A stretch of DNA of 42,518 nt, taken from the NCBI GenBank assembly GCA_020832345.1, contig JAFIEY010000044.1:1-42518 (forward strand). The letters are read 5' to 3'. The translations under genes were made by a program, and so were the position numbers. A model generated the notes under the pieces. The model saw only the letters and a program-made list of their open reading frames with translations. It was not told where the DNA came from and searched no databases. Positions 11,646 through 28,923 of the stretch are shown here, piece after piece; the stretch's first letter is position 1, and every line of letters starts with the position of its first letter. The stretch is from Cryomorphaceae bacterium (GTDB lineage Bacteria > Bacteroidota > Bacteroidia > Flavobacteriales > Schleiferiaceae).

Positions 11646-12029
11646 TGGTTCAAAGTATTTTTGTAATCAGATGAAAATTGCGCGTCCTATCGTTGTGGCA
11701 AACCTCAAGTGCGGATTCTAGCAAAGTCTTCTTTCGACTGGTTTTTTACGCTTGAAACCCTAAATTTTCAGAGCTTTGTTTTGCGCATATTATCAAGCAG
11801 TAAATGTACCATTTTTTTTTGAAATTGTCCGGGGTGGTTTTTTATTGGTGGTGTAGTTTTGTCGCAACAATTTTGAGTCCACTCCAAAAAGGAAGATTTT
11901 TGCAGAAAGGGACTTTTTGGAACATACTCATTTTTTGAATCGGAGAAGAACCTCCTTTTTACAATGTGCTTTATGGCTTTTGGAAAATCTTTCTGTTTAT
12001 GGGCCAATAGACAATCTGAAAAATATCAA
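11646..12029. other. divergent intergenic region between transglutaminase-like gene and porin
   Basis: AT-rich spacer holding the short repeat copy D. I see no other gene, RNA or clear promoter. An in-frame upstream ATG for the porin exists at 11964, but the extension is not signal-peptide-like. Confidence 0.5.
11875..11929 (-). repeat. MITE-like palindromic repeat, copy D (internally deleted)
   Basis: A 55-bp derivative in reverse orientation: GAGTCCACTCCAAAAAGGA is joined directly to AGATTTTTGCAGAAAGGGAC and ends in ATACTC. Both termini are kept while the whole centre is lost. Flanking bases AATTTT and ATTTTT match at five of six positions, a possible worn target duplication. Confidence 0.8.
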
Positions 12030-13310
12030 ATGAATACGCGAAGCATCAGTTCTCAATTCAGGTTTAGTCAAATAGGTTTAGTCTTTTTGTTTGTCCTTTT
12101 TAGCAAATTTTCAGTTGCGCAAATTTATCCGGTTCCCCCGAATAAAAAAAACTTAGCGGATACTGCCGCATATATGGAATCCATTCCTCCGGCTTTTGCG
12201 GAAGTACCGTATTTTACTTTTGGACAAGGAATTGGCATTCATTCGCCCGATAGTTTGTTCTCGTTTAATTTGAGATTTAGGATTCAAAATCGTGCGGGTT
12301 TCACTTTTGAAGATGAGGGTTTGTCAGAAATTGAAGCCCGAGTCAGGCGCTTGCGACTTCGTTTTGATGGTTTTGTTTGGAGTCCGAAAATATTTTATGT
12401 GGTTCAACTTTCCTTTACCCGTGGTGATATGGACTGGGAAAACACCTTTTTCCCCAATGTTGTTCGAGATGCGATGATTTTTTACCGACCGACGGAAAAG
12501 TTGCAATTGGGTTTTGGTCAGACCAAACTACCCGGCAATAGGCAGCGGGTTAACTCTTCGGGTGACTTGCAATTTGTTGACCGCAGTATTGTAAACGCGG
12601 GTTTAAATATCGACCGGGATTTTGGAATTCAAATGGCCTATACGGAAAATCTGTTTCGTGATTTTTATGCTGTGTTCCGGGGCGCAATTACTTCAGGCGA
12701 AGGGCGAAACATCATAGCAACCGGAACCGGACTGGCCTATACCGGTCGTATCGAGATTTTACCCATTGGCCTCTTCGAGCGATTTGGTGATTATTTTGAA
12801 GGCGATTTATTGCGCGAACAAAGACCCAAACTATCTGCGGGTTTTACCTATAGTTACAATGCACAAACCTTAAGGACCGGCGGACAAATTGGGCTACCGC
12901 TTTTTGCCCCTCGCGACATGACTACCTTGGGAACAGATTGGTTGCTCAAATACAACGGTTTTGCATTTGCCGCCGAATTATTGTATCGCCACAGTGAAGA
13001 ACCCCTTACCACAAATGATATTGGTGAAATGCGGTATATCTATACTGGGCTGGGACAGAATTTCCAAGCGAGTTATATCTGGCCTTCTGATTATGAAGTT
13101 GCCCTGCGTTATAGCCAAATGCAACCCGAAGGCGTAATTTTGGACTTTGAACCAACAGTGCGCCAATACACCATTGGGTTAACCAAATACCTAAAAGGTC
13201 ACCGACTCAAACTACAGACGGATTTTACATTTGAACAACGGGCCTTTGAAGTTTCCGGTGTGCCAAAGGATAATTTTCAGTGGCGGTTTCAAGTTGAATT
13301 AGGTATTTAG
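12030..13310 (+). CDS. outer-membrane porin (phosphate-selective porin O/P-like)
   Basis: A 426-aa predicted beta-barrel porin. From ATG 12030 it has a signal peptide ending FSKFSVAQ. The mature start (YFTFGQGIGIHSPDSLFSFNLRFRIQNRAG) followed by RVRRLRLRFDGFVWSPKIFYVVQLSF is typical of Bacteroidota OprO/OprP-like porins. Alternating aromatic strands run to the end (FQWRFQVELGI). I preferred ATG 12030 over the in-frame ATG at 11964 because the signal peptide then sits at the N-terminus. The solute is unknown; phosphate is only the family name. Its stop overlaps the stop of the convergent TamL-like gene by 4 bp. Confidence 0.8.
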   Translation: MNTRSISSQFRFSQIGLVFLFVLFSKFSVAQIYPVPPNKKNLADTAAYMESIPPAFAEVPYFTFGQGIGIHSPDSLFSFNLRFRIQNRAGFTFEDEGLSEIEARVRRLRLRFDGFVWSPKIFYVVQLSFTRGDMDWENTFFPNVVRDAMIFYRPTEKLQLGFGQTKLPGNRQRVNSSGDLQFVDRSIVNAGLNIDRDFGIQMAYTENLFRDFYAVFRGAITSGEGRNIIATGTGLAYTGRIEILPIGLFERFGDYFEGDLLREQRPKLSAGFTYSYNAQTLRTGGQIGLPLFAPRDMTTLGTDWLLKYNGFAFAAELLYRHSEEPLTTNDIGEMRYIYTGLGQNFQASYIWPSDYEVALRYSQMQPEGVILDFEPTVRQYTIGLTKYLKGHRLKLQTDFTFEQRAFEVSGVPKDNFQWRFQVELGI

Positions 13311-15583
13311 AAGGGATACCCCAAGGCAAAATTCACCATCAACCCATCCCGATACCAGGCGCGTTCCAAAGGATTAAAGTTTTGAATCACCCAGACATTA
13401 TCATCAGAAGCGTGCAAGCGAATCGGTGTAGCAAAATCGAAGCGCAGCACAAAGAAATTTACGTCCACCCGAAGTCCAAAGCCCCCGCCCATGGCCAGTT
13501 GGTTAAACCAATCGTTGCTGAATGCGCCATTGGGGAGCGCGGGATTGTCGCGCAAAAGCCACACGTTACCCACATCTAAAAACCAGGCGCCTTTGAGTAG
13601 GGATACCAGCGGGAATCTGTATTCGAGGTTTGCTTCCAGTCGAATATCCCCCGATTGGTCAAAAAATGCACCAATACGTGTCGGATCGGGATTTATATAA
13701 CCGCCAGGGCCTAATGACCGAATTCTAAAAGCGCGAACACTGTTTGGCCCACCCGCAAAATATTGCTTCACAAAGGGCAGACTTTGCGAGTTGCCATAAG
13801 CATATCCGTAGCCCGTAAAAATCCTTCCCACCAAATTCCTGTCCTTTCCCGCTTTGGCATTTAACCTTAGATCTAACTCACCCTTTACAAACTGCGCAAA
13901 AGGTAATCCGAGTAATTCCGGGTCGGCATTGAATATGGCATAACCACCGCCCAGAAGATTCCCCGAACTTTCGGCGTGCAGCATGAGAAATTTCCGGACG
14001 GATCTTTTGTTTTCACTAAGCTCGGAATAGGTAAACGAGTAACTAATCGCCGGAATAAATTGTCGTTCAAATGATCGTCTTAAAAATGGATTGGCATTGA
14101 GGACAGCTTCAAATTCTCCAGTTGTGCTGAGCAAATTACTGTACATGATGTCGAGCGCTTCAATATCGTGGGTGATCCGCGCTGATGATTGCCACAGATA
14201 GCCGTATCGGGCCGAGAAATTATTTAGGGTGTAAAACCCCGCACGACGTAAAAAATTGACCCCGGTACTGATTTTGGTTTTCGGCAAGTTGTAGCTGGCG
14301 TATTTTGAAAGTTTTGGACGAAACAATAATCGGGGAATGTCCAATTCGCCCATCACGCCAAATTCATAGGAATAGGCCCCGTCGAATCCGTCGCCCAATT
14401 GCGTTTCAAAGGAGAAATTGGTCGATAATCGAAAGGTTTCCCCACCTTTAAAAATATTTCGGTTTGTGTAGGTGAGCCTGGCTGCCGGACCAGCGAAATT
14501 ATTAGATCGGGTGACCGCCTGAAGTTCAGCGCGAAAACTTCGCCTTGAAGCCGGAGACAGGTAAATGCCCAAATCCAAAAGTTGGGGATTACTATCATTT
14601 TGCGAAAATCTCAAATTCGCATGGGTATATGTACGCAGACTGTTGAGGTATCTGGAGGTTCTCCTTTGGTCGTGCAAGCGAAAGGTGGCTCCGGGTTCAA
14701 AAAGCACCAGGTTTCTCAAGTGTTTGGGGTAGAAAAAATCATCTCTATCAAAATAAATATCTCGGTATTTAACCGAAATGTTTCCGGTATCTGACTGCGA
14801 ATAGTTGGTGAAAACATTTATTTGTCCAATTTGGTAAGGCACTTTTGCGCGTTCAGAAGTTTCCGGTTTTAGTCGCAAAAACAAATCAAAAGTCCGGGGA
14901 TTATTATTATTCACCGTATCCATTTCAAAAATCAGGTGGTCGCTGTGGAAATAGTAAAACCCCTGCTCCCGCAACTCATCTTGTATGCGATTGGTTTCCA
15001 CTTTCAATGCGGATAGTCGAAAAACATCTCCGGGTTTAATGGTTGTATTTTGCACGGCGACTTGCAGCATTTTTTGAAGGTTTTCATTTTCATCTGGAAT
15101 ATCGAGTGTGTAATTATTCAAACGATAGGGGGCGGAAGTCTGTATGCTAATGACCAATTTTTTGGTTTTTTTCCCCGTTCGCTTCAATTCAAAATGAATA
15201 TCAGAAAAAAATAATCCATTATTTTCCAAGCGATTAACTAGGATGGTGCGAATTCGATCCAGGTTGACATCGGTGACATACACCGGTTTTTGTCCGTATC
15301 TTTTATTGAGATATTTCGTCAGCCAACGGCCTTTTTCAGCCTCGGTACGATACCGCGCCCACAGACCGGGTCGCATGCCCAAAAGCATTTCGTTGGGATT
15401 CGGTCGTACAGATTCTTCCATTTCGCCCATTACCGCTCGCCGGTGTTCGTAATCAGACGGTTGCCATTTCAGTTCGTACCCGTCGAGTAAGTCCTTTTCC
15501 TCGGGTACATACTTTAGGCTATTGCATCCCGAAAATAGCATCAGGAGGAAAAATAGGAGAGAAATGCGGTGAATCACCAACAT
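13307..15583 (-). CDS. tamL: TamL-type outer-membrane lipoprotein, Omp85/BamA family
   Basis: A 758-aa lipoprotein of the Omp85 superfamily. The signal sequence ends in the lipobox LFSGC (Cys20), which matches the Bacteroidota TamA-like lipoprotein TamL, not BamA. Residues ~30-240 contain POTRA-like stretches (for example VNLDRIRTILVNRLENNGLFFSDIHFEL). The C-terminal half is the 16-strand barrel with the conserved region GGPNSVRAFRIRSLGPGGY, then IRLEANLEYRFPL, and a terminal aromatic (LGYPF). In the family, TamL pairs with the periplasm-spanning TamB in envelope biogenesis; tamB is not in the window. The gene name rests on lipobox plus architecture. Confidence 0.82.
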   Translation of the reverse strand: MLVIHRISLLFFLLMLFSGCNSLKYVPEEKDLLDGYELKWQPSDYEHRRAVMGEMEESVRPNPNEMLLGMRPGLWARYRTEAEKGRWLTKYLNKRYGQKPVYVTDVNLDRIRTILVNRLENNGLFFSDIHFELKRTGKKTKKLVISIQTSAPYRLNNYTLDIPDENENLQKMLQVAVQNTTIKPGDVFRLSALKVETNRIQDELREQGFYYFHSDHLIFEMDTVNNNNPRTFDLFLRLKPETSERAKVPYQIGQINVFTNYSQSDTGNISVKYRDIYFDRDDFFYPKHLRNLVLFEPGATFRLHDQRRTSRYLNSLRTYTHANLRFSQNDSNPQLLDLGIYLSPASRRSFRAELQAVTRSNNFAGPAARLTYTNRNIFKGGETFRLSTNFSFETQLGDGFDGAYSYEFGVMGELDIPRLLFRPKLSKYASYNLPKTKISTGVNFLRRAGFYTLNNFSARYGYLWQSSARITHDIEALDIMYSNLLSTTGEFEAVLNANPFLRRSFERQFIPAISYSFTYSELSENKRSVRKFLMLHAESSGNLLGGGYAIFNADPELLGLPFAQFVKGELDLRLNAKAGKDRNLVGRIFTGYGYAYGNSQSLPFVKQYFAGGPNSVRAFRIRSLGPGGYINPDPTRIGAFFDQSGDIRLEANLEYRFPLVSLLKGAWFLDVGNVWLLRDNPALPNGAFSNDWFNQLAMGGGFGLRVDVNFFVLRFDFATPIRLHASDDNVWVIQNFNPLERAWYRDGLMVNFALGYPF

Positions 15584-16375: not shown

Positions 16376-16552
16376 ATGAACGATGTGAAAATTCTCGGTG
16401 TTTGTGCATATCTGGCAAACCGGTTTAAACTCGATGTGCTGGGGGTTAGAATTGCATTTATTATTGGAATTGTATTCACCGCAGGTACTGCCTTGGTGAT
16501 TTACTTGCTGATTTATTTATTAATTCCCAAAGACCAAAGAAGGCAATGGTGA
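16376..16552 (+). CDS. PspC domain-containing small membrane protein
   Basis: A 58-aa protein starting MNDVKILGVCAYLANRFKLD, with the PspC hallmark of a glycine-containing N-terminal turn and an amphipathic stretch (GVCAYLANRFKLDVLGVR), then a single strong membrane helix (IAFIIGIVFTAGTALVIYLL) and a short basic tail (IPKDQRRQW). PspC proteins belong to envelope-stress signalling in Proteobacteria; stand-alone mini-PspC proteins are common in Bacteroidota with unclear roles. Its stop overlaps the next gene: ATGGTGA holds the ATG of the RmlD-like gene and the TGA of this one, so translation may be coupled. Confidence 0.75.
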   Translation: MNDVKILGVCAYLANRFKLDVLGVRIAFIIGIVFTAGTALVIYLLIYLLIPKDQRRQW

Positions 16553-17448
16553 AAATGAAAATACTCGTTACCGGTGCAAATGGCCTTTTGGGCAATGCTA
16601 TTTTTAGACTTTTTGGCGACACTCACGAAATCGTCGGAACGGGTAGGGGCGATCGACGTCCTGGCGTTTTACCCAATATTCCCTATTTTTCCTGTGATTT
16701 GGAAAGTGAAGAATCTGTATCGGATTTGATGAATGAAGTCGCACCCGATGTTATCATTCACGGTGCCGCCATGACGCAGGTGGATCAGTGTGAGTTGAAC
16801 CCGGAGGATTGTCATCGCGCCAATGTTACTGCCACAAAAAATTTAATTTCCAATTGTAAGTCTTCCGTTCGTTTTGTTTTTCTGTCCACCGACTTTGTTT
16901 TTGACGGCACCGAACCTCTTTATAAGGAAACGGATGTGCCGAATCCGGTTAGTGTTTACGGGAAATCTAAACTGGACGCGGAGGTTTTGGTGGCCAATTC
17001 CGGTCTGTCTTATGCAACTTTGCGAACCATGCTGGTTTATGGTTATGCGCCAGAACTTTCGCGAACCAATATTGTACTGTGGGTGAAATCTTCGTTGGAA
17101 GCAGGGAAAACCATTACTGTAGTAGATGACCAGTTTAGAACCCCAACCCTAGTTGATAATTTGGCAGAAGCCTGTCTCTTGGCAGCCAATTCAAAGGCTT
17201 GTGGTGTTTTTCATATTTCCTCCGAAACGTATTTGAGTATGTTTGACTTTGCCAATCAAGTAGCAGATTTGTGGGGATTGGACAAGGGGTTAATCAAGCG
17301 AATCGACACGCCTTCTTTAGGACAACCGGCGAAGCGCCCCCCGGCTACCGGGTTTTCCGTAGAAAAAGCTAAAGCAGATTTGGGATTTGTTCCCGTTTCC
17401 GTAGCGGATGGACTGGCCATGCTGAAATCGCGAATGGAGTTAGCGTAG
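16546..17448 (+). CDS. RmlD-like NAD(P)-dependent sugar-nucleotide reductase (SDR family)
   Basis: A 300-aa extended short-chain dehydrogenase. It has the Rossmann motif GANGLLG near the N-terminus, HGAAMTQVDQCE, FLSTDFVFDG and the catalytic YGKSK (YxxxK). The order and spacing fit the RmlD substrate-binding family (dTDP-4-dehydrorhamnose reductase and relatives). No other rhamnose-pathway gene is nearby, so the true substrate is open. The start may be ATG 16546, overlapping the pspC-like stop, or ATG 16555, which gives the common family start MKILVTGANG; AGAAGG lies at 16538-16543. The next gene starts 60 bp after the stop. Confidence 0.85.
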   Translation: MVKMKILVTGANGLLGNAIFRLFGDTHEIVGTGRGDRRPGVLPNIPYFSCDLESEESVSDLMNEVAPDVIIHGAAMTQVDQCELNPEDCHRANVTATKNLISNCKSSVRFVFLSTDFVFDGTEPLYKETDVPNPVSVYGKSKLDAEVLVANSGLSYATLRTMLVYGYAPELSRTNIVLWVKSSLEAGKTITVVDDQFRTPTLVDNLAEACLLAANSKACGVFHISSETYLSMFDFANQVADLWGLDKGLIKRIDTPSLGQPAKRPPATGFSVEKAKADLGFVPVSVADGLAMLKSRMELA

Positions 17449-17508: not shown

Positions 17509-19569
17509 ATGCAAAAATTTCTTTGGTCGCTCGTGATGTTGGTCGGATTTTCTCCGATTTATGCAGAGGATTTACAAGTTCAGTACAGGGTGTTGAACCC
17601 GTCCAAAGATATCAACAATGCGTCCATTGTGTTGGATGTTTCCGGAGGGCAATCCCCGTTTTCATTTTACTGGTCTGATCAGGCTACATCCACAACTTCT
17701 TCCCGCGCACGTGGGCTGACCGAGGGATTGACCTATACAGTGGTGGTAGAAGATGCCAGTGGGCAGTCGGTAGAACTGGTTGTCCCTATAAGGGCCGAAT
17801 CCATGGCCGAAAAATTCAACGGAACATTCAAGCCATTGGTGGGTAAAATTGGTTCCGTTTTATTTTGGGATATGTTTGCCGCCTTAGGACTTCACGATCC
17901 CATTGTTTACGAAAAGGAAAAATTCTTATTTGCCCCGGGTTGGGATCCAGAAACCAAGGATGTTTTTTTCGTGGAAGAATGGTTGGTTTCGGATGGAAGT
18001 TCCATTCAAAAAGGTGATTCCATTGCGATAATTCAACAAAGTGGCGTGGGTTCGGTGTCTGTGATTGCGCCGGCAGAGGGAGTTCTTCGGCAAAATGTAT
18101 CTGCCGGGGAAGCCATTTATGATCCCGAAAACCCCGAACACATCATTGCGACCAACGCACATCAGTTTGCGACTTTAATATTTCCCAGTCCTACGCCAAT
18201 TACACATCCCAACGGAGATCCGGTGAAAAAGGGAATTCCATTCATCGTGGTTTGGCTCATTTTTGGCGCGGCATTTTTCACCCTTCGCATGGGCTTTATC
18301 AATATACGCGGGTTTCGTCATTCATTGGATTTGGCGCGGGGCAAATACGATGATCCGGACGCCCCCGGTCGCATCACGCATTTTCAAGCTCTCGCAACCG
18401 CAGTTTCTGCCACGGTGGGATTGGGGAATATTGCGGGCGTGGCCATTGCGGTTTCCCTCGGTGGTGCCGGCGCTACTTTTTGGATGATCTTGGCCGGATT
18501 GCTTGGTATGTCGTCGAAGTTTGTGGAGTGTACACTGGGCGTAAAATACCGTTTCATCAGTAAAGAAGGTCGAATTTTCGGCGGGCCGATGAACTATTTG
18601 CGATATGGTCTTGAGAAGAGAAATATGAAAGGCTTTGGAAAAGTTCTGGCCGGTTTCTTTGCCATTTTGGCCATTGGTGCTTCCTTTGGCGGTGGTAACA
18701 TGTTTCAAGCCAATCAGTCATTTGATATTCTAGCCGGACAAATGCCCATTCTGGTTGGAAATCGTGTCCTTTACGGGGTGATTCTCGCCATCTTGGTGGG
18801 TACGGTAATCATTGGGGGAATTAATAGCATTGCGAAAGTTACCGGGAAGGTTGTGCCTTTTATGGCGGCGGTTTATATTCTGGGCGCATTGGTGGTTATT
18901 GGTTTAAACATCAGTAATATAGGCCCTGCATTTGAAGCCATTATCAGCGGGGCTTTTTCGCCTTCGGCCATCAAGGGTGGGTTTATCGGTGTCATGGTCG
19001 TCGGGTTTCAACGGGCGGCATTCTCCAATGAGGCCGGGGTCGGTTCAGCTGCAATTGCCCATAGCGCTGCCAAAACCAATCATCCGCCGTCTGAAGGCTT
19101 TGTTGCCCTCCTCGAACCTTTTATCGACACGGTAGTTGTTTGCACCCTGACTGCATTGGTGTTGATTTTTACCGGAAAACACGAAATCAGCGGGCTCTCC
19201 GGGGTGGAGTTAACTTCATCCGCCTTTGGCAGTGTCATTTCCTGGTTTCCTTATGTGTTGTCGGTGGCTGTTTTTCTTTTTGCCTTTTCCACCATGATAT
19301 CCTGGTCGTACTACGGTATGCGTGCCTGGACCTATGTTTTTGGAAAGAGCAAGCGAACCGAATTTATTTATAAAATTGTCTTTTTACTGTTTGTGGTTTT
19401 AGGTGCTTCGGTAAGTTTAGGCGCTGTACTCGATTTCTCAGATATGATGATTTTGGCTATGTCATTCCCCAATATTATCGGCTTGTACATCATGTCGGGT
19501 GAAGTCAAAAAAGACCTTAACACATATTTAAGAGATTTAAAGGCAGGAAAATTATACATTAAAAAGTAA
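17509..19569 (+). CDS. AGCS family Na+/alanine-type symporter with Ig-like and lipoyl-like N-terminal domains
   Basis: A 686-aa fusion. Residues 1-20 form a signal peptide (FLWSLVMLVGFSPIYAE). Residues ~21-98 look like an SprB/Ig-like repeat (VLDVSGGQSPFSFYWSD, GLTYTVVVEDASGQ). Residues ~138-228 resemble a biotinyl/lipoyl-type barrel as found in membrane-fusion proteins (VEEWLVSDGSSIQKGDSIAI, SVIAPAEGVLRQNVSAGEAI), but lack the usual modified lysine motif. From ~residue 240 to the end is a full amino-acid carrier of the AGCS family, with the signature TAVSATVGLGNIAGVA, GGPMNYL, and AFSNEAGVGSAAIAHSAA. It would import alanine or glycine with Na+ at the inner membrane, with the extra domains in the periplasm. 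The extra domains are unusual for AGCS carriers as I know them. Confidence 0.88.
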   Translation: MQKFLWSLVMLVGFSPIYAEDLQVQYRVLNPSKDINNASIVLDVSGGQSPFSFYWSDQATSTTSSRARGLTEGLTYTVVVEDASGQSVELVVPIRAESMAEKFNGTFKPLVGKIGSVLFWDMFAALGLHDPIVYEKEKFLFAPGWDPETKDVFFVEEWLVSDGSSIQKGDSIAIIQQSGVGSVSVIAPAEGVLRQNVSAGEAIYDPENPEHIIATNAHQFATLIFPSPTPITHPNGDPVKKGIPFIVVWLIFGAAFFTLRMGFINIRGFRHSLDLARGKYDDPDAPGRITHFQALATAVSATVGLGNIAGVAIAVSLGGAGATFWMILAGLLGMSSKFVECTLGVKYRFISKEGRIFGGPMNYLRYGLEKRNMKGFGKVLAGFFAILAIGASFGGGNMFQANQSFDILAGQMPILVGNRVLYGVILAILVGTVIIGGINSIAKVTGKVVPFMAAVYILGALVVIGLNISNIGPAFEAIISGAFSPSAIKGGFIGVMVVGFQRAAFSNEAGVGSAAIAHSAAKTNHPPSEGFVALLEPFIDTVVVCTLTALVLIFTGKHEISGLSGVELTSSAFGSVISWFPYVLSVAVFLFAFSTMISWSYYGMRAWTYVFGKSKRTEFIYKIVFLLFVVLGASVSLGAVLDFSDMMILAMSFPNIIGLYIMSGEVKKDLNTYLRDLKAGKLYIKK

Positions 19570-19590
19570 TTTTTTCCTACTTTTGTCCTC

Positions 19591-20682
19591 ATGTGGAGGA
19601 AGATTACAGATTGGTTCTATATGAGTCCGCGCGAAAGGCGAGGGGCTGCTGTGCTTTTTTTGCTGCTGGGTTTGGTGATTGGGATGAAATTATTCCTTCA
19701 CACAAGGGATATGGCAGAGGGGGAGCGATGGCGTGCTGAGCTTTTATCGCAAATTAGTCTGAATGAAGACATTCCCGCCAATGAAAAAACTTCCACAGAA
19801 AATAAGAGTAATTCCACAACCCATATATCATCCTCCCGCTCAGTTGTTTTTTCCGAAGCTGGCAAGTTTGATCCCAACAAAGTAGAAAAGGCAAAACTTC
19901 AAGAAATGGGTTTGCCGGATTACGCAGCAAAAAATTGGATTCGTTATCTGGAAAAAGGTGGTGTTTTTTACAAGCCTGAAGATGTTCTGTATATATATGG
20001 TATGGATACGCTGTGGTGGGCATCCGCAAAAAAGCACATGTATTTTTCCGAACCGGAGAAATCCGAAATCCCAAAAATTGAAATTCCATCCTTTGATCCC
20101 AATTCGTTGGATTCATTATCTGCACTTAAAATAGGATTCTCACCCTGGCAATTTTCCCAATTAAAAACGTACCGGGAAAAGTTTGGGGGCATAACCCGGA
20201 CTGAGGATTTGTTGTCGGTCCATGGAATGGACTTTTACCTGTATCGCCAAATTTCCCCGCATGTAAAAATTTCAAATTTAGAAAAATACATTGTGGACTT
20301 AAACCATGCGGATACCACAAAATTGAAGCGGGTACGGGGTATTGGATCATATTACGCCCGCGAAATCGTTTCAATGCGGGAGGTTTTGGGGAAAATAGCT
20401 TCCTTCGATCAATTGCTTGAAATTCACGGAATGGATAGTCTTCGTTGGGTGTCTATTTGCAGTCAGGTAAAACTCGACACCTCTGGAATTCAAAAAATTT
20501 CCATTAACCATGCTGATGTCAATGCCCTTGCGGCTTTGCCGTACGTAAATAAATCATTGGCAAAAGAAATAGTTGAATTTAGGGAGAACTTTCAGCCATT
20601 TGTTTCGGTTGATGAGATTGTTCAATTATCTTTGTTCCCCAAATCGAAACAACGGTTTATACTACCGTACTTAACTTTATGA
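19591..20682 (+). CDS. membrane-anchored helix-hairpin-helix (ComEA-like) protein, four HhH units
   Basis: A 363-aa protein with an N-terminal membrane anchor at residues ~17-35 (GAAVLFLLLGLVIGMKLFL) followed by four ComEA-like units at about residues 93-139, 168-214, 235-282 and 300-346. Each unit has the order [FIV]-D-x-N, an L-x-x-[LMV] turn, a helix, and F-x-x-x-[ED]-[DQE]-[LI]-L-x-[IV]-[HY]-GMD; the GMD end is clear in the first three. HhH units usually bind DNA without sequence preference; ComEA handles incoming DNA in competence. No other competence gene is nearby, so a DNA-uptake role is unproven. A TACTTTTG box (19578-19585) ends 5 bases before the ATG. It ends 3 bp before the acyl-CoA dehydrogenase gene. 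Confidence 0.8.
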   Translation: MWRKITDWFYMSPRERRGAAVLFLLLGLVIGMKLFLHTRDMAEGERWRAELLSQISLNEDIPANEKTSTENKSNSTTHISSSRSVVFSEAGKFDPNKVEKAKLQEMGLPDYAAKNWIRYLEKGGVFYKPEDVLYIYGMDTLWWASAKKHMYFSEPEKSEIPKIEIPSFDPNSLDSLSALKIGFSPWQFSQLKTYREKFGGITRTEDLLSVHGMDFYLYRQISPHVKISNLEKYIVDLNHADTTKLKRVRGIGSYYAREIVSMREVLGKIASFDQLLEIHGMDSLRWVSICSQVKLDTSGIQKISINHADVNALAALPYVNKSLAKEIVEFRENFQPFVSVDEIVQLSLFPKSKQRFILPYLTL

Positions 20683-20685
20683 TAT

Positions 20686-21852
20686 ATGTCTGAAACACTT
20701 AGCTCTGCAGGAATGGATTTTTCCACCACAGAAACCCAAAAAATGATTGCTGAAACGGTTCGTGATTTTTGCGAACACAACATTCGTCCATACATAATGG
20801 AATGGGATGAAGCACAACATTTCCCCGTTGACGTAATGAAAAAACTCGGTGAACTTGGATTGCTGGGCGTTTTGGTACCCGAACAATACGGTGGTGCAGG
20901 GCTTGGTTACGACGAATACGTCACCGCGATTTCCGAACTCGGCAAGGTTGATCCGTCAATAGCTTTGTCTATGGCGGCGCATAATTCACTTTGTACGGGT
21001 CATATTATGCAGTTTGGCAACGATACCCAAAAACAAAAATATTTACCCAAGCTCGCAACCGGTGCATGGATTGGTGCGTGGGGATTGACAGAAGTAAATA
21101 CCGGAAGTGATGCCGGGGGAATGCATACCACAGCTGTAAAGGACGGGGGTCACTGGATCATCAACGGTTCCAAAAACTTCATTACCCACGGCGTTTCCGG
21201 GGATGTAGCAGTTGTTATTGTGCGTACCGGAGAAAAGGGAGATTCTCACGGCATGACCGCTTTTGTCGTGGAAAAGGGCACACCGGGATTTAGCGGTGGT
21301 CGCAAGGAGAATAAGTTGGGCATGCGTGCCAGTGAAACCACCGAATTAATTTTTGAAAACTGCCGTGTGCCCCATGAAAATATGTTGGGAAATGAGGGTG
21401 ATGGTTTTATTCAAGCCATGAAAGTTTTGGATGGAGGCCGGATTTCCATTGCGGCACTTTCACTAGGGGTCGCAAAAGGCGCTTACGAAGCCTCTATAAA
21501 ATACGCCAAAGAACGCGAGCAGTTTGGTCAGCCCATTGCCAATTTTCAGGCCATTGGTTTTAAACTTGCCGATATGGCCACCCAAATTGAAGCTGCTGAA
21601 TTATTGACATTTCAGGCAGCAGCCAGAAAAAATGCCGGACAAAAAGTGACCACCGAAGGTGCAATGGCCAAGCTTTACGCCAGTGAAGTATGTGTGCGTG
21701 TTGCCAATGAAGCCGTGCAAATTTTTGGCGGATATGGATTTACCAAAGACTTTCCGGTGGAGAAATTTTACCGCGATGCCAAGTTGTGTACCATCGGAGA
21801 AGGCACCTCAGAAATACAGCGCTTGGTCATTTCAAAGAACATTTTGAAATAG
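20686..21852 (+). CDS. acyl-CoA dehydrogenase
   Basis: A 388-aa flavoenzyme that introduces the alpha-beta double bond into acyl-CoA thioesters. Visible are the FAD-contact motif GAWGLTEVNTGSDAGG, the GMRASETTEL segment, GRISIAALSLGVAKGAYEAS, EREQFGQPIANFQ, and the C-terminal FRD-like end YRDAKLCTIGEGTSEIQ, where Glu372 is the predicted catalytic base. Sequence order suits the short- or branched-chain type; chain specificity cannot be fixed by eye. It starts 3 bp after the HhH protein stop, so they are probably co-transcribed despite unrelated roles. Confidence 0.94.
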   Translation: MSETLSSAGMDFSTTETQKMIAETVRDFCEHNIRPYIMEWDEAQHFPVDVMKKLGELGLLGVLVPEQYGGAGLGYDEYVTAISELGKVDPSIALSMAAHNSLCTGHIMQFGNDTQKQKYLPKLATGAWIGAWGLTEVNTGSDAGGMHTTAVKDGGHWIINGSKNFITHGVSGDVAVVIVRTGEKGDSHGMTAFVVEKGTPGFSGGRKENKLGMRASETTELIFENCRVPHENMLGNEGDGFIQAMKVLDGGRISIAALSLGVAKGAYEASIKYAKEREQFGQPIANFQAIGFKLADMATQIEAAELLTFQAAARKNAGQKVTTEGAMAKLYASEVCVRVANEAVQIFGGYGFTKDFPVEKFYRDAKLCTIGEGTSEIQRLVISKNILK

Positions 21853-21873
21853 CAGATTTTTTTTAAAACTTAA

Positions 21874-21905
21874 TTTGAGTAGATAAAAAAAGTTGGCTAT
21901 ATTTG
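21874..21905 (+). promoter_or_regulatory. putative promoter for rpsU
   Basis: TTTG (21874-21877), a 20-base spacer and a perfect TATATTTG -7 box (21898-21905), the best match in the window to the Bacteroidota consensus. It lies 36 bp upstream of the rpsU ATG. Confidence 0.6.
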
Positions 21906-21941
21906 CCGACCCAAAATAGCAACATATTTAATTGATATATA

Positions 21942-22136
21942 ATGATTGTAGTTTCATTGAAAGAAGGCGAATCCATCGACCGTGCCCTCAAGCGTTATAA
22001 GCGTAAATACGACCGCATCGGTGTGGTTCGCAAATTGCGTTCAAACCAACACTTCACCAAGCCCAGTGTTACTCGGCGAATTGAAGTTTTGAAGGCAGCT
22101 TACATCCAGAAGAAAAACGATTCCGAGCAAGGATAG
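21942..22136 (+). CDS. rpsU: 30S ribosomal protein S21
   Basis: A 64-aa basic protein starting MIVVSLKEGESIDRALKRYKRKYDR, the S21 signature, with the RRIEVLKAAYIQKK C-terminal helix. It is a small-subunit protein that helps base-pairing between 16S rRNA and mRNA, and in Bacteroidota it takes part in hiding the anti-Shine-Dalgarno sequence (established for Flavobacterium ribosomes). It leads the unit rpsU-xerC-hpf common in this phylum. Confidence 0.96.
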   Translation: MIVVSLKEGESIDRALKRYKRKYDRIGVVRKLRSNQHFTKPSVTRRIEVLKAAYIQKKNDSEQG

Positions 22137-22229
22137 TTTTTTCTGAGATTGTTGGGACAAATTTATTAGTCCATCAGTATATCTTATTGTATATTGCGGA
22201 ATGCTTAATTGTGTTCCGCAATATTTTTT

Positions 22230-23114
22230 ATGGAAGAAAGTGTAATGCGTTTTATCCGCTACCTGAAATTGGAGCGGCGATATTCATCCCATTCCGTCAA
22301 AGCCTATCAAAATGACTTGACCACCTTTGTCTCCTTTATACAGGAGAACCACGAGGGTATTGGTTTGGAGGAAATACATCGTCATTTGATCCGGGACTGG
22401 ATTATCGAACTTTATGACGAGGGTTTGGCAGCTCGCAGCATTTCCAGAAAGCTATCGGCGATTAAATCATTTTTTACATATTGTTGTGCCGAGGGTGTAT
22501 TAGAAAACAACCCCGCGAGTCATTTGCGTACCCCAAAGGGGCAGAAGGATGTTATAAGTGTATTGTCGGAGCGGGAAATTGAAAAACTTTTTGCGCTGAA
22601 ATTCCCGGACGATTTTGAGGGAGATCGCGACCGATTGATTTTGGAAGTACTATATGGATGTGGTTTGCGACGTGCCGAACTGATCGCTTTAAAGACGACA
22701 GACGTCCAGGGGAACTATATCAGTGTATTGGGAAAGCGCAACAAAATGCGGCAAGTTCCTCTTAACCCTACCTTAAAAAATCAAATTGAGAATTATTTAA
22801 CCAAGCACGGTAAATTCTTGGATGACAGTGGTAGTGGACTTTTGTTCCAAACCAAGCGCCAAAAAAAAATGAATCCGAGGGTTGTGTATGAAATTGTTGT
22901 GAAGTACATTAGTCTCGTCTCAACGGTGACATACCGGGGACCGCATATCCTCCGCCACAGTATGGCTACACATCTGTTAAGTCGCGGTGCCGACATCAAT
23001 GCCATCAAAGAAATATTGGGGCATTCTAGTTTGGCCGCAACACAGGTTTACACCCATATGTCGGTGGAAAAATTAAAAACCGTTTATAACCACGCCCATC
23101 CAAGGGGCAATTAA
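22230..23114 (+). CDS. xerC: tyrosine recombinase XerC/XerD
   Basis: A 294-aa tyrosine recombinase that resolves chromosome dimers at dif together with a partner. The N-terminal SAM-like core-binding domain (RFIRYLKLERRYSSHSVKAYQNDL) is followed by the catalytic domain with Arg147 (GCGLRRAEL), a Lys in LGKRNKMRQVPL, His239 and Arg242 (PHILRHSMATHLL), His265 (LGHSSLAATQVY) and nucleophile Tyr274 (VYTHMS). I chose ATG 22230; the frame is open up to a TTG at 22209. The chromosomal context (rpsU before, hpf after) argues for the housekeeping recombinase and against a phage or integron integrase. C versus D assignment is tentative. Confidence 0.9.
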   Translation: MEESVMRFIRYLKLERRYSSHSVKAYQNDLTTFVSFIQENHEGIGLEEIHRHLIRDWIIELYDEGLAARSISRKLSAIKSFFTYCCAEGVLENNPASHLRTPKGQKDVISVLSEREIEKLFALKFPDDFEGDRDRLILEVLYGCGLRRAELIALKTTDVQGNYISVLGKRNKMRQVPLNPTLKNQIENYLTKHGKFLDDSGSGLLFQTKRQKKMNPRVVYEIVVKYISLVSTVTYRGPHILRHSMATHLLSRGADINAIKEILGHSSLAATQVYTHMSVEKLKTVYNHAHPRGN

Positions 23115-23477: not shown

Positions 23478-23732
23478 GTTTTTGGCAAACGATATATTTA
23501 TGTTATTATATGGTTACTTTTCTGATTTTACGAAATTTTTTTAATAGGTCTGTGTCAAAGATTATCAAATATAAAAGTTGATTATGTATTTTAGTTTTTG
23601 TCATCAAATTTTGCCTTAGACTTGTTTACTAAATTGTTGTGATTTTAATACCATTTTATTACCCGGGAAAAAAATAAACGTTTTTAACTTTTAAATTATT
23701 GGTTTTGTGTGCTTTGAGTTATTTGTTTCGAC

Positions 23733-23740
23733 TATATTTA
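23733..23740 (+). promoter_or_regulatory. putative -7 box (TATATTTA) of giant gene 1
   Basis: An ACTATATTTA string 29 bases before the start codon. The same ACTATATTT occurs 24 and 27 bases before giant genes 2 and 4. It is one mismatch from TAnnTTTG. A TTTG lies 16 bases upstream, a short spacer. Confidence 0.4.
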
Positions 23741-23769
23741 ACCCGTTGAATAATCAAAAAACTCAAACA

Positions 23770-26700
23770 ATGAAGAAGATTTACAAAAGCACAACTCGGT
23801 CAATACGAAATTCCGCCGGTGTTGTTGCTGCCTGCCTCGGACTTTTCCTTGGCTTAAGTACAACCAATATGCACGCACAGTGTATTCGAACATCCGATTG
23901 GGGGACACTTACGGTGTCGGACCAAACAACAACGGCTACAAACATTAACACCTGTATTTATACAGATGAATATTCAGTAATTACTGTAAATGATCCGGGT
24001 CAATACGAGTTTGCCATTGTCGGAACGCCTACTTATTTGACGTTTACGGATGCTTCAAATGCAGTCATAGCACATGGTGCTAGTCCTTTGACAGTTTCTG
24101 TACCTGCAAACGGAGTTTACCGAGTTCATTATGCGGAGAATGCTGCATGTGGTTCCGTTGCCCTATGTCGCACTTCAACAGCTCAGTATATTGGGCCTTT
24201 GGCGCAAGCTTTAACGGCTGTAGTTGGTACGGGGACGTTGACTGGCGGAACAACTCAAAACGGCTCACCAATTTACCGTTCATCTACGACGAGTGGTTTC
24301 GACTATGCAATGAGCGTTCAATTGATGACACAAGCTGACCTGGCCGCTGCTGGTGTTTTTCCGGGTGTTGATATTACACAAATTGCGTATTTCAAGACCA
24401 CAGTACATACAATGGCTGATCGCGATGCGACGTACAGAGTTTATGTAAAGAATTCTAATGAAAATGCCCTTGTGTCTGGAAGTCCTTTCTCTACATATAT
24501 AGCAGGTTCAACATTGGTGTATGAGAATTTAGCCATGGATGATACCGATATTCCTAATACTGTTGGTTGGATGCCTTTACCATTCTCCGCTCCTTTTACT
24601 TATACAGGAGGTAGTATTGAAGTTGCGCTGGAATGGTCAGTAAACCCAGGTGCAACCAATAACAGATCTACTGGAGCTTTTCAGTGGGAGTATGGGGTAG
24701 TAACCAATGCTCAAGCCATTGGTTGGTCCAGTTCTGCAGCTCCTACACCAACAACTAATTTGACTACATCTACAAACTTTTTGTATAATTGTGAAGTTTC
24801 CTTCTTGCCAGCTGCGGGTACAGATTTAGGTATTTCAGAATTTGTTAATCCTGTTGCAGCATGTCCAGGTTCTACACCGGTTACTGTTGCCATAATTAAT
24901 TCAGGAGGTGAAGCCATTACATCGGCTACCATTGGATGGACATTAAACGGAATTACGCAAACGCCAATTAGTTGGACTGGTAATTTGGCTGTTGCCGGAG
25001 ATACCGCGCATGTAAACCTTGGGTCTTTCACTTCTGTTGCCGGTACAAATTACAGTATCGAAGCATTTTTAAGTGCCGTAGGTCCGGGAACCGACTCGAC
25101 CACTTTAAATGATTCATTGGCAATGGCTTTCACCCCAGCGCTTAGTGGCACATATACTGTAAACGCGGCTGCACCTGTTAGTGCTACCAACTTTCAATCG
25201 TTGGTAGATGTTGCCAATACTTTAAATTCTGCGGGTATTTGTGGACCGGTCATATTTAACGTAGCGCCAAATAGCGGGCCATATATTGGTCGTGTTGAAT
25301 TGTTGGAAATCATGGGTTCAAGCGCAACCAATACGATTACCATAAACGGAAATGGTAACTGGCTAACCAATGAAGCTACTGCAACAGATTTACGTGCGGC
25401 CTTAATGCTCGATGGAACAGATTACCTCACCATAGACAGTTTAAATATTGAAGCAACCGGTACATGGGCATGGGGTGTTCAGTTGATGAATGAAGCAGAC
25501 CATAATACCATAAAGAACTGTAAAATTGAAGTTCCCATGACTTCTACTTCTACATTCTTTGCCAACGTGGTAATGAGTGGAAGTACAACGGGAGGAACAA
25601 CTGCCGGGGCTTCTGGTAGCTTCAATACCTTTGAAAACAACCATCACATTGGAGGTTATTACTCCTTTACCATGATGGGTGAAAATGCAGCAAATCGCTC
25701 ACAGGGCAACAAAATCCTAAACAGCGTATTGGAAGATATGGCTTTATACGGTATTTACTGTTCACAACAAGCAGGAACTGAGATTATCGGAAATGTACTC
25801 AACCAATCAACCCGTACAAATGGTAGTACCTTTTACGGAGTGTTTTTTACTGCGAGTGAACCTTCTGAAGTTTCCGGAAATCACATCTACGATATTGCAG
25901 CAAACTATTCAGCCACAATTTCTGCTTATCCTTTGTACTTTACCGGTTCGGGAGGAGCAAGTGCAGCCAGTCCGCTGAAAATTCACAACAATGCCATATA
26001 CAACCTATATAATAATGGACTTCAGTATGGTATTTATCTGTTGGGTGTGACCAATAACGTTGAGTTATATCACAATACCGTGGCTTTGGAAAACTTGAAC
26101 CAGACAGGAGCCAGTACGCTGGCTTGTTTGTACCACACAGGCGTTGCAACCAATGTTGATGTGAGAAACAACATTTTCCATATCAACAACAGCAACACCG
26201 GTACACAGTACAATATCTGGTTTAGTAATGCCAACCCCGGATTTAGCTCAAACAACAATGCGTTTTACAATTCTAATCCCAACGGAATTGTTGCACGTCG
26301 CGGTACAGTCAACAGCAATACGCTAGCCGACTGGCAAGCATCTAACGGTAATATTTATGATCAAAACTCGGTATTTGCCAATCCGGTATTTGCCAATCTT
26401 TCATCTGGTTTAATTGCCCCACTTTCCTCAGTTATTGATAACATTGGTACTCCTTTGGGTATAACCTCGGATATAAATGGCGCTCCCCGTTCAACGACTA
26501 CGCCGGATCCGGGTGCTGTTGAATTTGCCGGTATTGCAGCTGATATAGCTTTAATTGATTGGGAAATTTTACGGGGCGGTTGCTTATCAAATAGCGATAC
26601 CCTAGCGCTGACCATTCGCAATGTGATAGGACCTACTGTAAATCTTGCTACTAATAATGTTGTTGCAAACTGGCAAGTTACCGGTCCGGTAACTTCAAAT

Positions 26701-28923
26701 GGCACCATTACTTTTAATTCAGGTACGCTTTCTCCTGACGCAACCCTAACAGGTTTTGGTCTCGGTGTAGATATGTCAGTTGCCGGTGTTTATACCATCA
26801 ACGCTTGGTTAGATACTTCATCGGTGAACCTAGTCGGGATAAATGACACCATAAATGGAGGTCAGTTTGAAGTTCGGCCAATTATTAGCGTAACTCCTCA
26901 AACCGTTACTGTTGGCAATCCAAACGATACTATAGAGATTTCTGTAAATTCTCCGTTTATGCCCGGTGGTGGTGTATTTATTACTGAGATTTGCCATTTC
27001 CGTGGCTCCGCAACCGGTGCTATGGTTGGTGGTTGGCCTGCTTACCTTTTAGCCGATGACTATATCGAACTTACTGGTGTGCCAAACTCCGACATCTCAG
27101 GATATACCATTGAAATGTGGTCTGCCACTGCGCTCACCAACGCCTCTACCTTAGATCCCGGAACTATTCTGAGTCCTCAAGGTACTGCGGTAATTGCTAC
27201 AGGTCAATTGGGTTCAAGTGTACCAAGTCCTGCAAATTATTATTACCATTCAGGATATACCGGAACCATGGGATCCACAACAGCTCAAGGATATGTCATT
27301 AAAGACCCTGGGGGAAATATTGTAGATGCCGTTATGTACGGTGGTATCACCTTTCCGCCTGCCGCAAATGTTTCTCCAGCAGATTGGACTGGGATTACCC
27401 CTTCCGTGGGAAGTGCCGGTAATAGGTTGGAGGGTGCATATACTAAGGATGCGACCAACTGGATTAACTCGGGAGTTTCACCTCAAGATCCAAACTTGGT
27501 CAATAATTTAGTAACCGTTCCTGTTCCCGGAAACTTAACCGGATTGGAGTGGAGTCACCAAGGTGTAGTTCTTGATACTGTAGCAGCCATTTATGTAGGT
27601 CCATGGTCAGTTCCAGGGACATATTATTACACAGCGACTTATCAATCGCCTTGTGGCCCACTGACTGATTCAGTTGAGGTTATTGTTGATTTTCCATACT
27701 GCTTTGAAATCGATAGCTTAATGGTTGATGCCGCTTGTGTTGAAGCAGAGGTTAGCTGGATTTCCGGGCCTTGGTCAAATTCCTCAACCATTGAATACGG
27801 TGTAGCAGGATTTACACCTGGAACAGGAACAACAGTTTTTGGTGCTAGCAGTCCGTATATGTTAACAGGGCTATCGTCTTCTACGACTTATGATGTTTAT
27901 GTAACTGATACTTGTGCAGGATTTTTATCAACTGCTTTGGGTCATGACTCTACATTGAGTAGCGAGATTTCGAGTGAATATAACTTCGCGCCCACAACGA
28001 GCACAATCAGCGCTTGTGCAGGTTCACTTTCTGTCAATATTCCTGCCGGTGCTAATATCGATAGTATTGCAGTGGAATACGACTTTACTGCCGGAGGTGG
28101 TGCATGGATGAGTGAGCAATTAAGCTATTTGGTTTGTACAAGTCCCGGTGGAACCGCTGAGGCTTCAGTGACCCCGGGGCCGGGCGTTAGTTCGGCAGGA
28201 ACTGCCACTTATACTCGCTCTGGTTTAACCATTGCCAATGGTGTTGCAGGAGGAGGTGCAATTAACTTCCAATTACACGCTTTCCGTTCGTGGGGAGGTG
28301 CAGGATGTGATAACATTTACAATGTTGTTGATGCCAATAGCTTCAAAGTAACTGTTTACACTACCGATTCAGTGTTTACCCAAATCGGTGAATCTGCACC
28401 CGCAATGACTAACTTTACCACACAAGAGCTACCCGTTGCCGTAGGTTTTTCTTATGTACACAACGGTTCAGGTGGCTATGACTTTGTAGCTGATACCGGC
28501 TCTGTGGGTAATCTATCATGGAATTTTGGTGATGGAAACTCTGCTATGGGCGACAGTGTTACCAATCAATATGCAAGTGAGGGCACCTACTCGGTTTTAC
28601 TCATTGCAACCAACGATTGTGGTTCAGACACGGCCATGGTACAATTGGTATATACAAGTGTTGAGCATTTTGGTCTCAATACCATAGCGCTTTATCCCAA
28701 TCCTTCAACCGGAGTATTTAGTTTAAGCCAATTGCCAATTGATGGAGGTAAACTCACTCTCGTGTTGAACGACATGCAGGGTAGAGGTGTAATGACCAAG
28801 GTATATGAGGAAGGTCTAAATAAGATTGAACTCAATATTGAACACCTTAGGGCAGGCACATATTACCTAACCATTTCTAATGGAGTGGGTCAGGTGGTTA
28901 AGCCGGTTATTTTGGTAAAATAA
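23770..28923 (+). CDS. giant modular secreted protein 1, T9SS type A substrate
   Basis: 1717 aa from ATG 23770, chosen because the signal peptide (MKKIYKSTTRSIRN..., ending STTNMHAQ, residue 37) then starts the protein; the frame is open further up. Modules by residue: N-terminal beta domain 38-140 (CIRTSDWGTLTVSDQ), second beta domain 140-345, CARDB-like 350-455 (AACPGSTPVTVAIINSGGE), right-handed beta-helix 457-920 with N-rich turns, second CARDB-like domain 920-1040, lamin-tail-like domain 1063-1255 (FITEICHF, DDYIELTG, GTAVIATGQLG), Ig-like and FN3-like 1255-1385, extra module 1413-1535 (CAGSLSVNIPAGA), PKD 1560-1630 (WNFGDGNSAMGD), C-terminal type A sorting domain 1633-1717 (LYPNPSTGVFSL, RAGTYYLTIS, KPVILVK). 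No catalytic site was recognised; an adhesin or surface-layer role is an inference. The repeat copy F abuts the stop codon. Confidence 0.88.
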   Translation: MKKIYKSTTRSIRNSAGVVAACLGLFLGLSTTNMHAQCIRTSDWGTLTVSDQTTTATNINTCIYTDEYSVITVNDPGQYEFAIVGTPTYLTFTDASNAVIAHGASPLTVSVPANGVYRVHYAENAACGSVALCRTSTAQYIGPLAQALTAVVGTGTLTGGTTQNGSPIYRSSTTSGFDYAMSVQLMTQADLAAAGVFPGVDITQIAYFKTTVHTMADRDATYRVYVKNSNENALVSGSPFSTYIAGSTLVYENLAMDDTDIPNTVGWMPLPFSAPFTYTGGSIEVALEWSVNPGATNNRSTGAFQWEYGVVTNAQAIGWSSSAAPTPTTNLTTSTNFLYNCEVSFLPAAGTDLGISEFVNPVAACPGSTPVTVAIINSGGEAITSATIGWTLNGITQTPISWTGNLAVAGDTAHVNLGSFTSVAGTNYSIEAFLSAVGPGTDSTTLNDSLAMAFTPALSGTYTVNAAAPVSATNFQSLVDVANTLNSAGICGPVIFNVAPNSGPYIGRVELLEIMGSSATNTITINGNGNWLTNEATATDLRAALMLDGTDYLTIDSLNIEATGTWAWGVQLMNEADHNTIKNCKIEVPMTSTSTFFANVVMSGSTTGGTTAGASGSFNTFENNHHIGGYYSFTMMGENAANRSQGNKILNSVLEDMALYGIYCSQQAGTEIIGNVLNQSTRTNGSTFYGVFFTASEPSEVSGNHIYDIAANYSATISAYPLYFTGSGGASAASPLKIHNNAIYNLYNNGLQYGIYLLGVTNNVELYHNTVALENLNQTGASTLACLYHTGVATNVDVRNNIFHINNSNTGTQYNIWFSNANPGFSSNNNAFYNSNPNGIVARRGTVNSNTLADWQASNGNIYDQNSVFANPVFANLSSGLIAPLSSVIDNIGTPLGITSDINGAPRSTTTPDPGAVEFAGIAADIALIDWEILRGGCLSNSDTLALTIRNVIGPTVNLATNNVVANWQVTGPVTSNGTITFNSGTLSPDATLTGFGLGVDMSVAGVYTINAWLDTSSVNLVGINDTINGGQFEVRPIISVTPQTVTVGNPNDTIEISVNSPFMPGGGVFITEICHFRGSATGAMVGGWPAYLLADDYIELTGVPNSDISGYTIEMWSATALTNASTLDPGTILSPQGTAVIATGQLGSSVPSPANYYYHSGYTGTMGSTTAQGYVIKDPGGNIVDAVMYGGITFPPAANVSPADWTGITPSVGSAGNRLEGAYTKDATNWINSGVSPQDPNLVNNLVTVPVPGNLTGLEWSHQGVVLDTVAAIYVGPWSVPGTYYYTATYQSPCGPLTDSVEVIVDFPYCFEIDSLMVDAACVEAEVSWISGPWSNSSTIEYGVAGFTPGTGTTVFGASSPYMLTGLSSSTTYDVYVTDTCAGFLSTALGHDSTLSSEISSEYNFAPTTSTISACAGSLSVNIPAGANIDSIAVEYDFTAGGGAWMSEQLSYLVCTSPGGTAEASVTPGPGVSSAGTATYTRSGLTIANGVAGGGAINFQLHAFRSWGGAGCDNIYNVVDANSFKVTVYTTDSVFTQIGESAPAMTNFTTQELPVAVGFSYVHNGSGGYDFVADTGSVGNLSWNFGDGNSAMGDSVTNQYASEGTYSVLLIATNDCGSDTAMVQLVYTSVEHFGLNTIALYPNPSTGVFSLSQLPIDGGKLTLVLNDMQGRGVMTKVYEEGLNKIELNIEHLRAGTYYLTISNGVGQVVKPVILVK

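Follow-up and report, generated by a model that had tools for sequence, protein, structure and literature searches.

The protein encoded at positions 17509-19569 (+) of the window (the whole 42,518-nucleotide stretch of contig JAFIEY010000044.1 from a Cryomorphaceae bacterium that we analysed) is a member of the AGCS family (TC 2.A.25), above the curated cut-offs of both TIGR00835 and PF01235. Its single open frame (686 aa) begins with a signal peptide and an SprB/Ig-like domain, and is predicted to carry a lipoyl-type barrel without attachment lysine in the loop between a conserved pre-membrane helix and the first membrane helix (Table 1). That this is an exported, extended AGCS carrier in which the barrel acts as a periplasmic docking or stabilising module is, in our view, an evenly balanced proposition.

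Table 1. Features of the AGCS gene of the window and of its neighbouring genes
Feature	Position	Strand	Basis or remark
Signal peptide, residues 1-19	17509..17565	+	K3, hydrophobic core, IYA|ED cleavage-like site; read from the translation by eye; hydropathy peak 4-22
SprB/Ig-like beta domain, residues 21-98	17569..17802	+	SprB 27.0 bits when scanned alone; strands in predicted model
Pre-membrane helix segment, residues 99-129 (MAEKFNGTFKPLVGKIGSVLFWDMFAALGLH)	17803..17895	+	Aligned in 16/16 rows
Predicted lipoyl/biotinyl-type barrel insert without attachment lysine, residues 130-232	17896..18204	+	Model, fold matches, profiles
Linker HPNGDPVKKG, residues 233-242	18205..18234	+	Counterpart present in SprB-only relatives
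AGCS (putative Na+:alanine/glycine symporter) core, residues 243-686 and stop codon	18235..19569	+	First membrane helix ~244-264; Pfam, TIGR00835, 6cse, hydropathy
RmlD-like reductase, upstream	16546..17448	+	PF04321 2.8e-64; family F10, also in L032, L033, L152
Helix-hairpin-helix (HHH) protein, downstream	19591..20682	+	PF12836 7.8e-38
Acyl-CoA dehydrogenase	20686..21852	+	PF00441 2.9e-53; family F2, 19/21 neighbourhoods
Tyrosine recombinase (XerD-like)	22209..23114	+	PF00589 1e-33; family F3, 18/21 neighbourhoods

The assignment to the AGCS carriers, made in an earlier note on this DNA from the letters alone, was borne out by profile and structure-based searches. The window protein scored 390.8 bits against TIGR00835 (cut-off 272.65; 7.4e-117; residues 246-673) and 411.8 bits against PF01235 (cut-off 24; 4.7e-123; residues 284-681), and its residues 244-672 aligned to residues 17-441 of the 453-residue AgcS chain in PDB entry 6cse (7e-94). 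By sequence homology, the core is a putative LeuT-type Na+-coupled alanine/glycine importer, and it shares the GNIAG, FSNEAG and VVCT stretches with AgcS (6cse/6csf, from Methanococcus maripaludis). Unlike the window protein, however, the 6cse chain has 16 residues before the aligned start, which leaves no room for a signal peptide, an Ig domain or a barrel. A PF01235 search revealed no second AGCS gene in the genome of the window. PMC10862720 counts AGCS among the LeuT-fold families and names AgcS as its one solved protein.

The signal peptide proposed in the earlier note was likewise recognisable by eye in the translation. Its further statement that the modules precede the carrier held for their front-end location, but the barrel is in fact placed between the conserved helix (residues ~99-129) and the first membrane helix, ending ~12 residues before the latter. 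Within the pre-membrane helix, residues P109, V111 and D121 were invariant in the 16 aligned rows, and the same helix was also found in AGCS proteins without Ig domain or barrel.

The Ig/SprB-like beta domain (~75 residues) was supported as well. Pfam SprB (PF13573) matched residues 36-60 of the window protein at 7.1e-05 (22.8 bits, below the curated cut-off of 28), and scanning the Ig domain on its own raised the score to just under that cut-off. Across the family, all 21 scanned AGCS Ig domains yielded an SprB match at E<=0.1, the best at 4.4e-11. The Ig region of the full-length model displayed strands (block pLDDT 36-78), and its best structural matches, obtained with the model of the N-terminal part alone, were Ig/PKD-like and middling (Z 5-6). 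SprB repeats are known from surface adhesins; in the AGCS proteins the domain occurs just once and is attached to a carrier of the inner membrane.

Structure prediction supported the lipoyl-type barrel that the earlier note had proposed, and the insert is predicted to adopt a lipoyl/biotinyl-type barrel-sandwich fold. In the full-length model, block pLDDT was 67-85 for residues 141-210 of the barrel and dropped to 43-55 at its edges. Residues 133-228 could be superposed on 66-85 residues of biotin carrier and lipoyl domains (Z 8.2-9.7), with rmsd values of mostly 1.8-3.6 and up to 5.3; Foldseek itself returned just three matches at E<=0.001. The barrel was the best part of this model, which was built from an input alignment of five rows and failed on the AGCS core, so that no contact between barrel and carrier was predicted. 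Modelling the N-terminal region alone gave a poor result (mean pLDDT 52.2), with the barrel part reaching Z 6.7 at most.

Profile comparisons pointed to the same fold. Pfam PF00364 matched the window protein at 0.0037, below its curated cut-off, and was matched at E<=0.1 by 17 of the 20 barrel members (best 1.3e-8); 11 of them also matched PF13533 (Biotin_lipoyl_2), seven gave weaker matches to M23 peptidase (best 0.00072) and one matched HlyD_2, at 0.029. An hhalign comparison of the barrel profile with the three E2 lipoyl domains of the same genome gave 96.8% probability over 49 columns, compared to at most 1.0% for 30 column-shuffled profiles. When the profile of the 20 barrels was searched against PDB sequences, E2 lipoyl and biotin carrier domains ranked first, at E 0.0039 at best.

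The barrel nevertheless differs from the E2 lipoyl and biotin carboxyl carrier domains (PF00364) in being fused into a membrane carrier, in the greater length of the segment that leads up to the last strand, where an IYxxxNxxxVIxxxAH pattern recurs, and in the absence of the lysine. As the earlier note had read from the sequence, the attachment position is occupied by a glycine (G179) in the window protein, and a lysine is found there in 2 of the 20 members, which points to a dead carrier domain. In the 20-row alignment A88 was invariant and H89 nearly so. The earlier note associated such barrels with membrane-fusion proteins or decarboxylase pumps; the top fold matches were carboxylase and dehydrogenase carrier domains. 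Membrane-fusion proteins do contain lipoyl-type barrels, and BesA, a membrane-fusion or adaptor protein, was present among the fold matches too (Z 8.5 and 8.4; ranks 37 and 43), so that the fold alone does not separate the two groups. In contrast to membrane-fusion proteins of the HlyD/AcrA/BesA type, however, the barrel has no alpha-hairpin at its tip: the tip loop was short in all 20 members, the insert amounts to one barrel of ~95 residues, and the model of residues 133-228 contained no helix pair of the membrane-fusion hairpin type.

The orientation of the protein was approached via its charge distribution. In 79 of 95 AGCS ORFs K+R residues were denser downstream of the first membrane helix than upstream of it (the other 16 did not show this bias), and the C-terminus was basic, with a mean of 5.66 K+R in the last 22 residues (95 ORFs, a few of them cut by the end of the locus). 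The bias suggests that the N-terminus of the carrier probably lies outside, which agrees with the position of the GxGN stretch in LeuT-fold helix 1. Given the signal peptide, this in turn suggests that the Ig domain and the barrel are periplasmic, provided that the hydrophobic segment 110-128 (mean hydropathy 1.52) does not cross the membrane. A cytoplasmic barrel, resulting from a membrane-crossing segment 110-128, was set aside as less likely because this segment is shared with relatives that have only the signal peptide and the helix, and because the charge bias suggests an N-out carrier.

Barrel-bearing AGCS proteins were detected with profile A6 in 20 of 395 Flavobacteriales genomes, spanning 11 genera and three families. 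The 22 strong matches (E<=4.3e-26) corresponded to ORFs of 690-715 aa without internal stops and fell in families f3, f6 and f1, the last represented by the genus of the window only; all five genomes of this genus carried the barrel, next to 15 further genomes. Two genomes (G677 and G727; loci L138 and L139) each harbour two barrel-type AGCS genes ~5 kb apart. The next match (1.3e-6) was a frame-broken copy in genome G045 of family f10 (L017, L127), still similar to the SprB plus barrel type and either a decayed gene or an assembly error. Across the phylum, 9 of 390 genomes gave a match at E<=1e-6, eight of which were AGCS-sized ORFs; the ninth (G189) was SufC-like by reading and was discarded. 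The barrel-AGCS proteins found are thus all in Flavobacteriales, while AGCS as such occurred in 217 of the 395 genomes sampled across the phylum and in 179 of the 395 from the order. A plasmid search with the N-terminal 251 aa gave no match, and outside Bacteroidota the search consisted of one contig scan with two peptide patterns from the Ig region, by which divergent forms are undetectable.

Candidate barrels outside AGCS were rejected. Weak A6 matches (E 2.2e-5 to 0.01), many of them to ORFs of ~250-265 and 400 aa, were attributed to chance because the four loci that were opened (L132-L135) held three SufC-like ABC ATPases and one 2-oxoacid-oxidoreductase-like ORF (named by reading). Three more weak matches in the genome of the window itself (E 0.0016-0.022) were E2 enzymes by reading.

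Seven architectures were assigned by eye from the printed front-end sequences: short (no extension), helix only, flavo540 (helix-like, with a loop insertion in the core), lipocalin-like plus helix, other beta insert, SprB plus helix, and SprB plus helix plus barrel. The lipocalin-like type (L100-L106, family f7) has its N-terminal domain placed before the helix; among four scanned members, Lipocalin_4 matched L101 at 0.0063 and L100 at 0.33, none of the four exceeding the cut-off. Proteins at L022:1420-1863, L028:235-678 and L023:1279-1866 (families f2 and f12) have no SprB domain and carry, by reading, a different small beta-type insert in the loop that elsewhere holds the barrel, for which the three scanned yielded no convincing Pfam match. 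These decorated carriers and the SprB-only proteins of f1, f14 and f4 share the core and, by reading, the signal peptide and helix with the window protein, but have another module or none in the loop that holds its barrel. Front-end modules differ between AGCS lineages at the same end of the protein.

The relationships between these proteins were examined in an IQ-TREE tree of 86 rows, based on a core alignment that starts slightly ahead of the first membrane helix and leaves out the insert. The 80 regions fetched gave no ORF under the filter for L051, L055, L056, L122, L125 and L127 (including the additional barrel gene of each of G677 and G727 and the broken one of G045), and seven earlier loci were likewise without ORF; the tree then comprised the window and 85 of 95 ORFs, ten being left out by hand (L048-L050, L052-L054, L075, L076, L078 and L119). 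All 20 barrel rows formed one side of a single branch (100/99; 100% of 200 bootstrap trees), which was nested within an SprB-bearing group of 37 rows (100/100). The seven architectures required six changes on this tree, which is the minimum possible. Provided that the tree is rooted outside these groups, the SprB domain would have been gained first and the barrel once, later. The earlier note had allowed that this N-terminus might already be described as a regular part of an AGCS subfamily: it indeed proved regular in a Flavobacteriales AGCS clade, but no earlier description was found among the matches listed in the open-access literature.

Within this tree, the five members of the genus of the window (g1), four of which are named MAGs of Cryomorphaceae or Flavobacteriales, nested in the barrel clade of f3, a family that looks Flavobacteriaceae-like, next to g39 (100/93). 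The other f1 rows on the tree were SprB-only, helix-only, flavo540 or short AGCS proteins. A constraint tree keeping the 15 barrel rows of f3 and f6 together was rejected (p-AU 0.0175, for a group chosen after seeing the tree). Quick trees of the neighbouring HHH protein and recombinase each supported f3 without g1 (99 each). The acyl-CoA dehydrogenase tree grouped g1 with f14 (93), with very long branches splitting two groups and with one f3 row (L144) and the f6 row on the side of g1; this tree probably mixes paralogues. Since the HHH-protein and recombinase trees both leave the genus of the window outside the supported f3 group, we do not favour a transfer of the whole gene cluster. Together, the trees are hinting at replacement in place of the AGCS gene by an f3-like copy, with hidden paralogy as a possible alternative because G677 and G727 each carry two barrel copies.

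The gene neighbourhood was compared across 21 loci, from which 209 neighbour ORFs were grouped and 30 families found to recur. The HHH gene came immediately after AGCS, in the same orientation, in 18 of the 21 neighbourhoods; three f1 genomes had it on the opposite strand, one of them with an intervening gene. The order AGCS, HHH protein, acyl-CoA dehydrogenase, XerD-like recombinase and ribosome-hibernation factor is widely kept (window 17509-23114, L032, L033 and L136-L153), without obvious functional link. Pfam scans of one representative each for 26 of the 30 families (all except F7, F16, F23 and F24) revealed mostly housekeeping genes and no outer-membrane factor or membrane-fusion protein. 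Among the families scanned were the ribosome-hibernation factor, DUF2851, a GDSL lipase, a rhodanese, a PALP enzyme and thioredoxin-like proteins. A TrkA-type potassium channel was present in 6/21 neighbourhoods and an FtsX-like permease (F19) in 2/21, and an ABC exporter-like family (F13) adjoined SprB-only AGCS genes in 3/21. The window also contains convergent Porin_O_P-like and Omp85-superfamily genes (11964-15583), ~2-5.5 kb upstream of AGCS, that had no counterpart in the fetched flanks of the other 20 neighbourhoods. The regions 680-4912 and 23707-28923 encode large proteins that bear type IX secretion signals (CHU_C; Por_Secre_tail with PKD).

We propose that the window protein would be a Sec-exported AGCS family member extended at its amino terminus, whose signal peptide would let the folded domains sit on the periplasmic side of the carrier. 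In Flavobacteriales, an SprB/Ig-like domain would have been added before the pre-membrane helix, followed later by one insertion of a barrel into the loop between this helix and the first membrane helix. Without its lysine and probably away from the cytoplasm, where lipoylation happens, the barrel would be unmodified, and would most likely serve over the outer mouth of the carrier as a docking or stabilising module, in contact with the carrier itself, with a second copy or with some general component of the envelope.

Other roles for the barrel can be set against the same observations. It might, as the earlier note had also considered for gating, act alone or with the Ig domain to gate or regulate the carrier by sensing a periplasmic signal or by capping the outer vestibule and so altering the transport rate. 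Its closeness to the first membrane helix would fit such a role, as would the other small insert in the same loop of L022, L023 and L028, which indicates that this site tolerates, and could transmit from, added domains. However, relatives with the same core and neither module are common (15 helix-only rows on the tree) and no obvious ligand site emerged from the barrel alignment despite its A88 and H89, so that we consider gating unlikely. The modules could also be near-neutral ornaments that are retained as harmless, as their fast divergence, their absence from sister lineages and the presence of different modules at the same end would allow. Between the window and L003, identity was 51% for the barrel and 58% for the Ig domain versus 88% for the core, and the modules evolve much faster than the core, as is also expected of weakly constrained ornament. 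Where computable, on the other hand, dN/dS was well below 1 for the barrel (0.043, 0.043 and 0.230 in 3/8 pairs) and the Ig domain (0.02-0.11 in 5/8 pairs), with 0.007-0.020 for the core (6/8 pairs); these values are rough, dS being near saturation, yet suggest that the modules are under constraint. The consistent presence of the barrel in the genus of the window and beyond it, with no stop in any of the 22 strong matches, argues in the same direction, notwithstanding the frame-broken copy in G045, and makes the ornament explanation rather improbable.

Coupling of the carrier to an outer-membrane partner in the style of membrane-fusion proteins, as the earlier note had considered, is disfavoured. 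The BesA fold match, the PF13533 matches and the upstream porin-like and Omp85 genes would be compatible with it, but a barrel of this size without a hairpin-sized tip insertion in any of the 20 members, the single HlyD_2 match, the absence of the porin-like and Omp85 genes from the fetched flanks of the other neighbourhoods and the lack of an outer-membrane factor among the scanned recurrent families leave such coupling very improbable. Finally, the fold is that of biotin and lipoyl carriers, and a working carrier domain might supply the transporter with a chemical group or a substrate; with the attachment lysine replaced in nearly all members and the barrel probably exported away from the cytoplasmic ligases, this is hardly credible. 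Substrate delivery, which the earlier note had raised as well, found no support in the analysis. The docking or stabilising module thus remains the reading that we prefer.

More generally, it is possible, though tentative, that the loop which joins the pre-membrane helix to the first membrane helix is a site for domain insertion, and that exported modules placed there or before the helix tune or position a LeuT-fold importer. AGCS carriers are usually regarded as bare membrane proteins, and here one clade within a large bacterial order appears to have a folded, non-catalytic barrel right at the first membrane helix. If the insertion-site reading is true, a lipoyl-type domain would have taken on the new task of regulating a secondary transporter from the periplasm, of which we know no other case. 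The natural series on one conserved core (helix only, SprB, SprB plus barrel, and other inserts) would make the effect of such modules on a Na+-coupled importer measurable.
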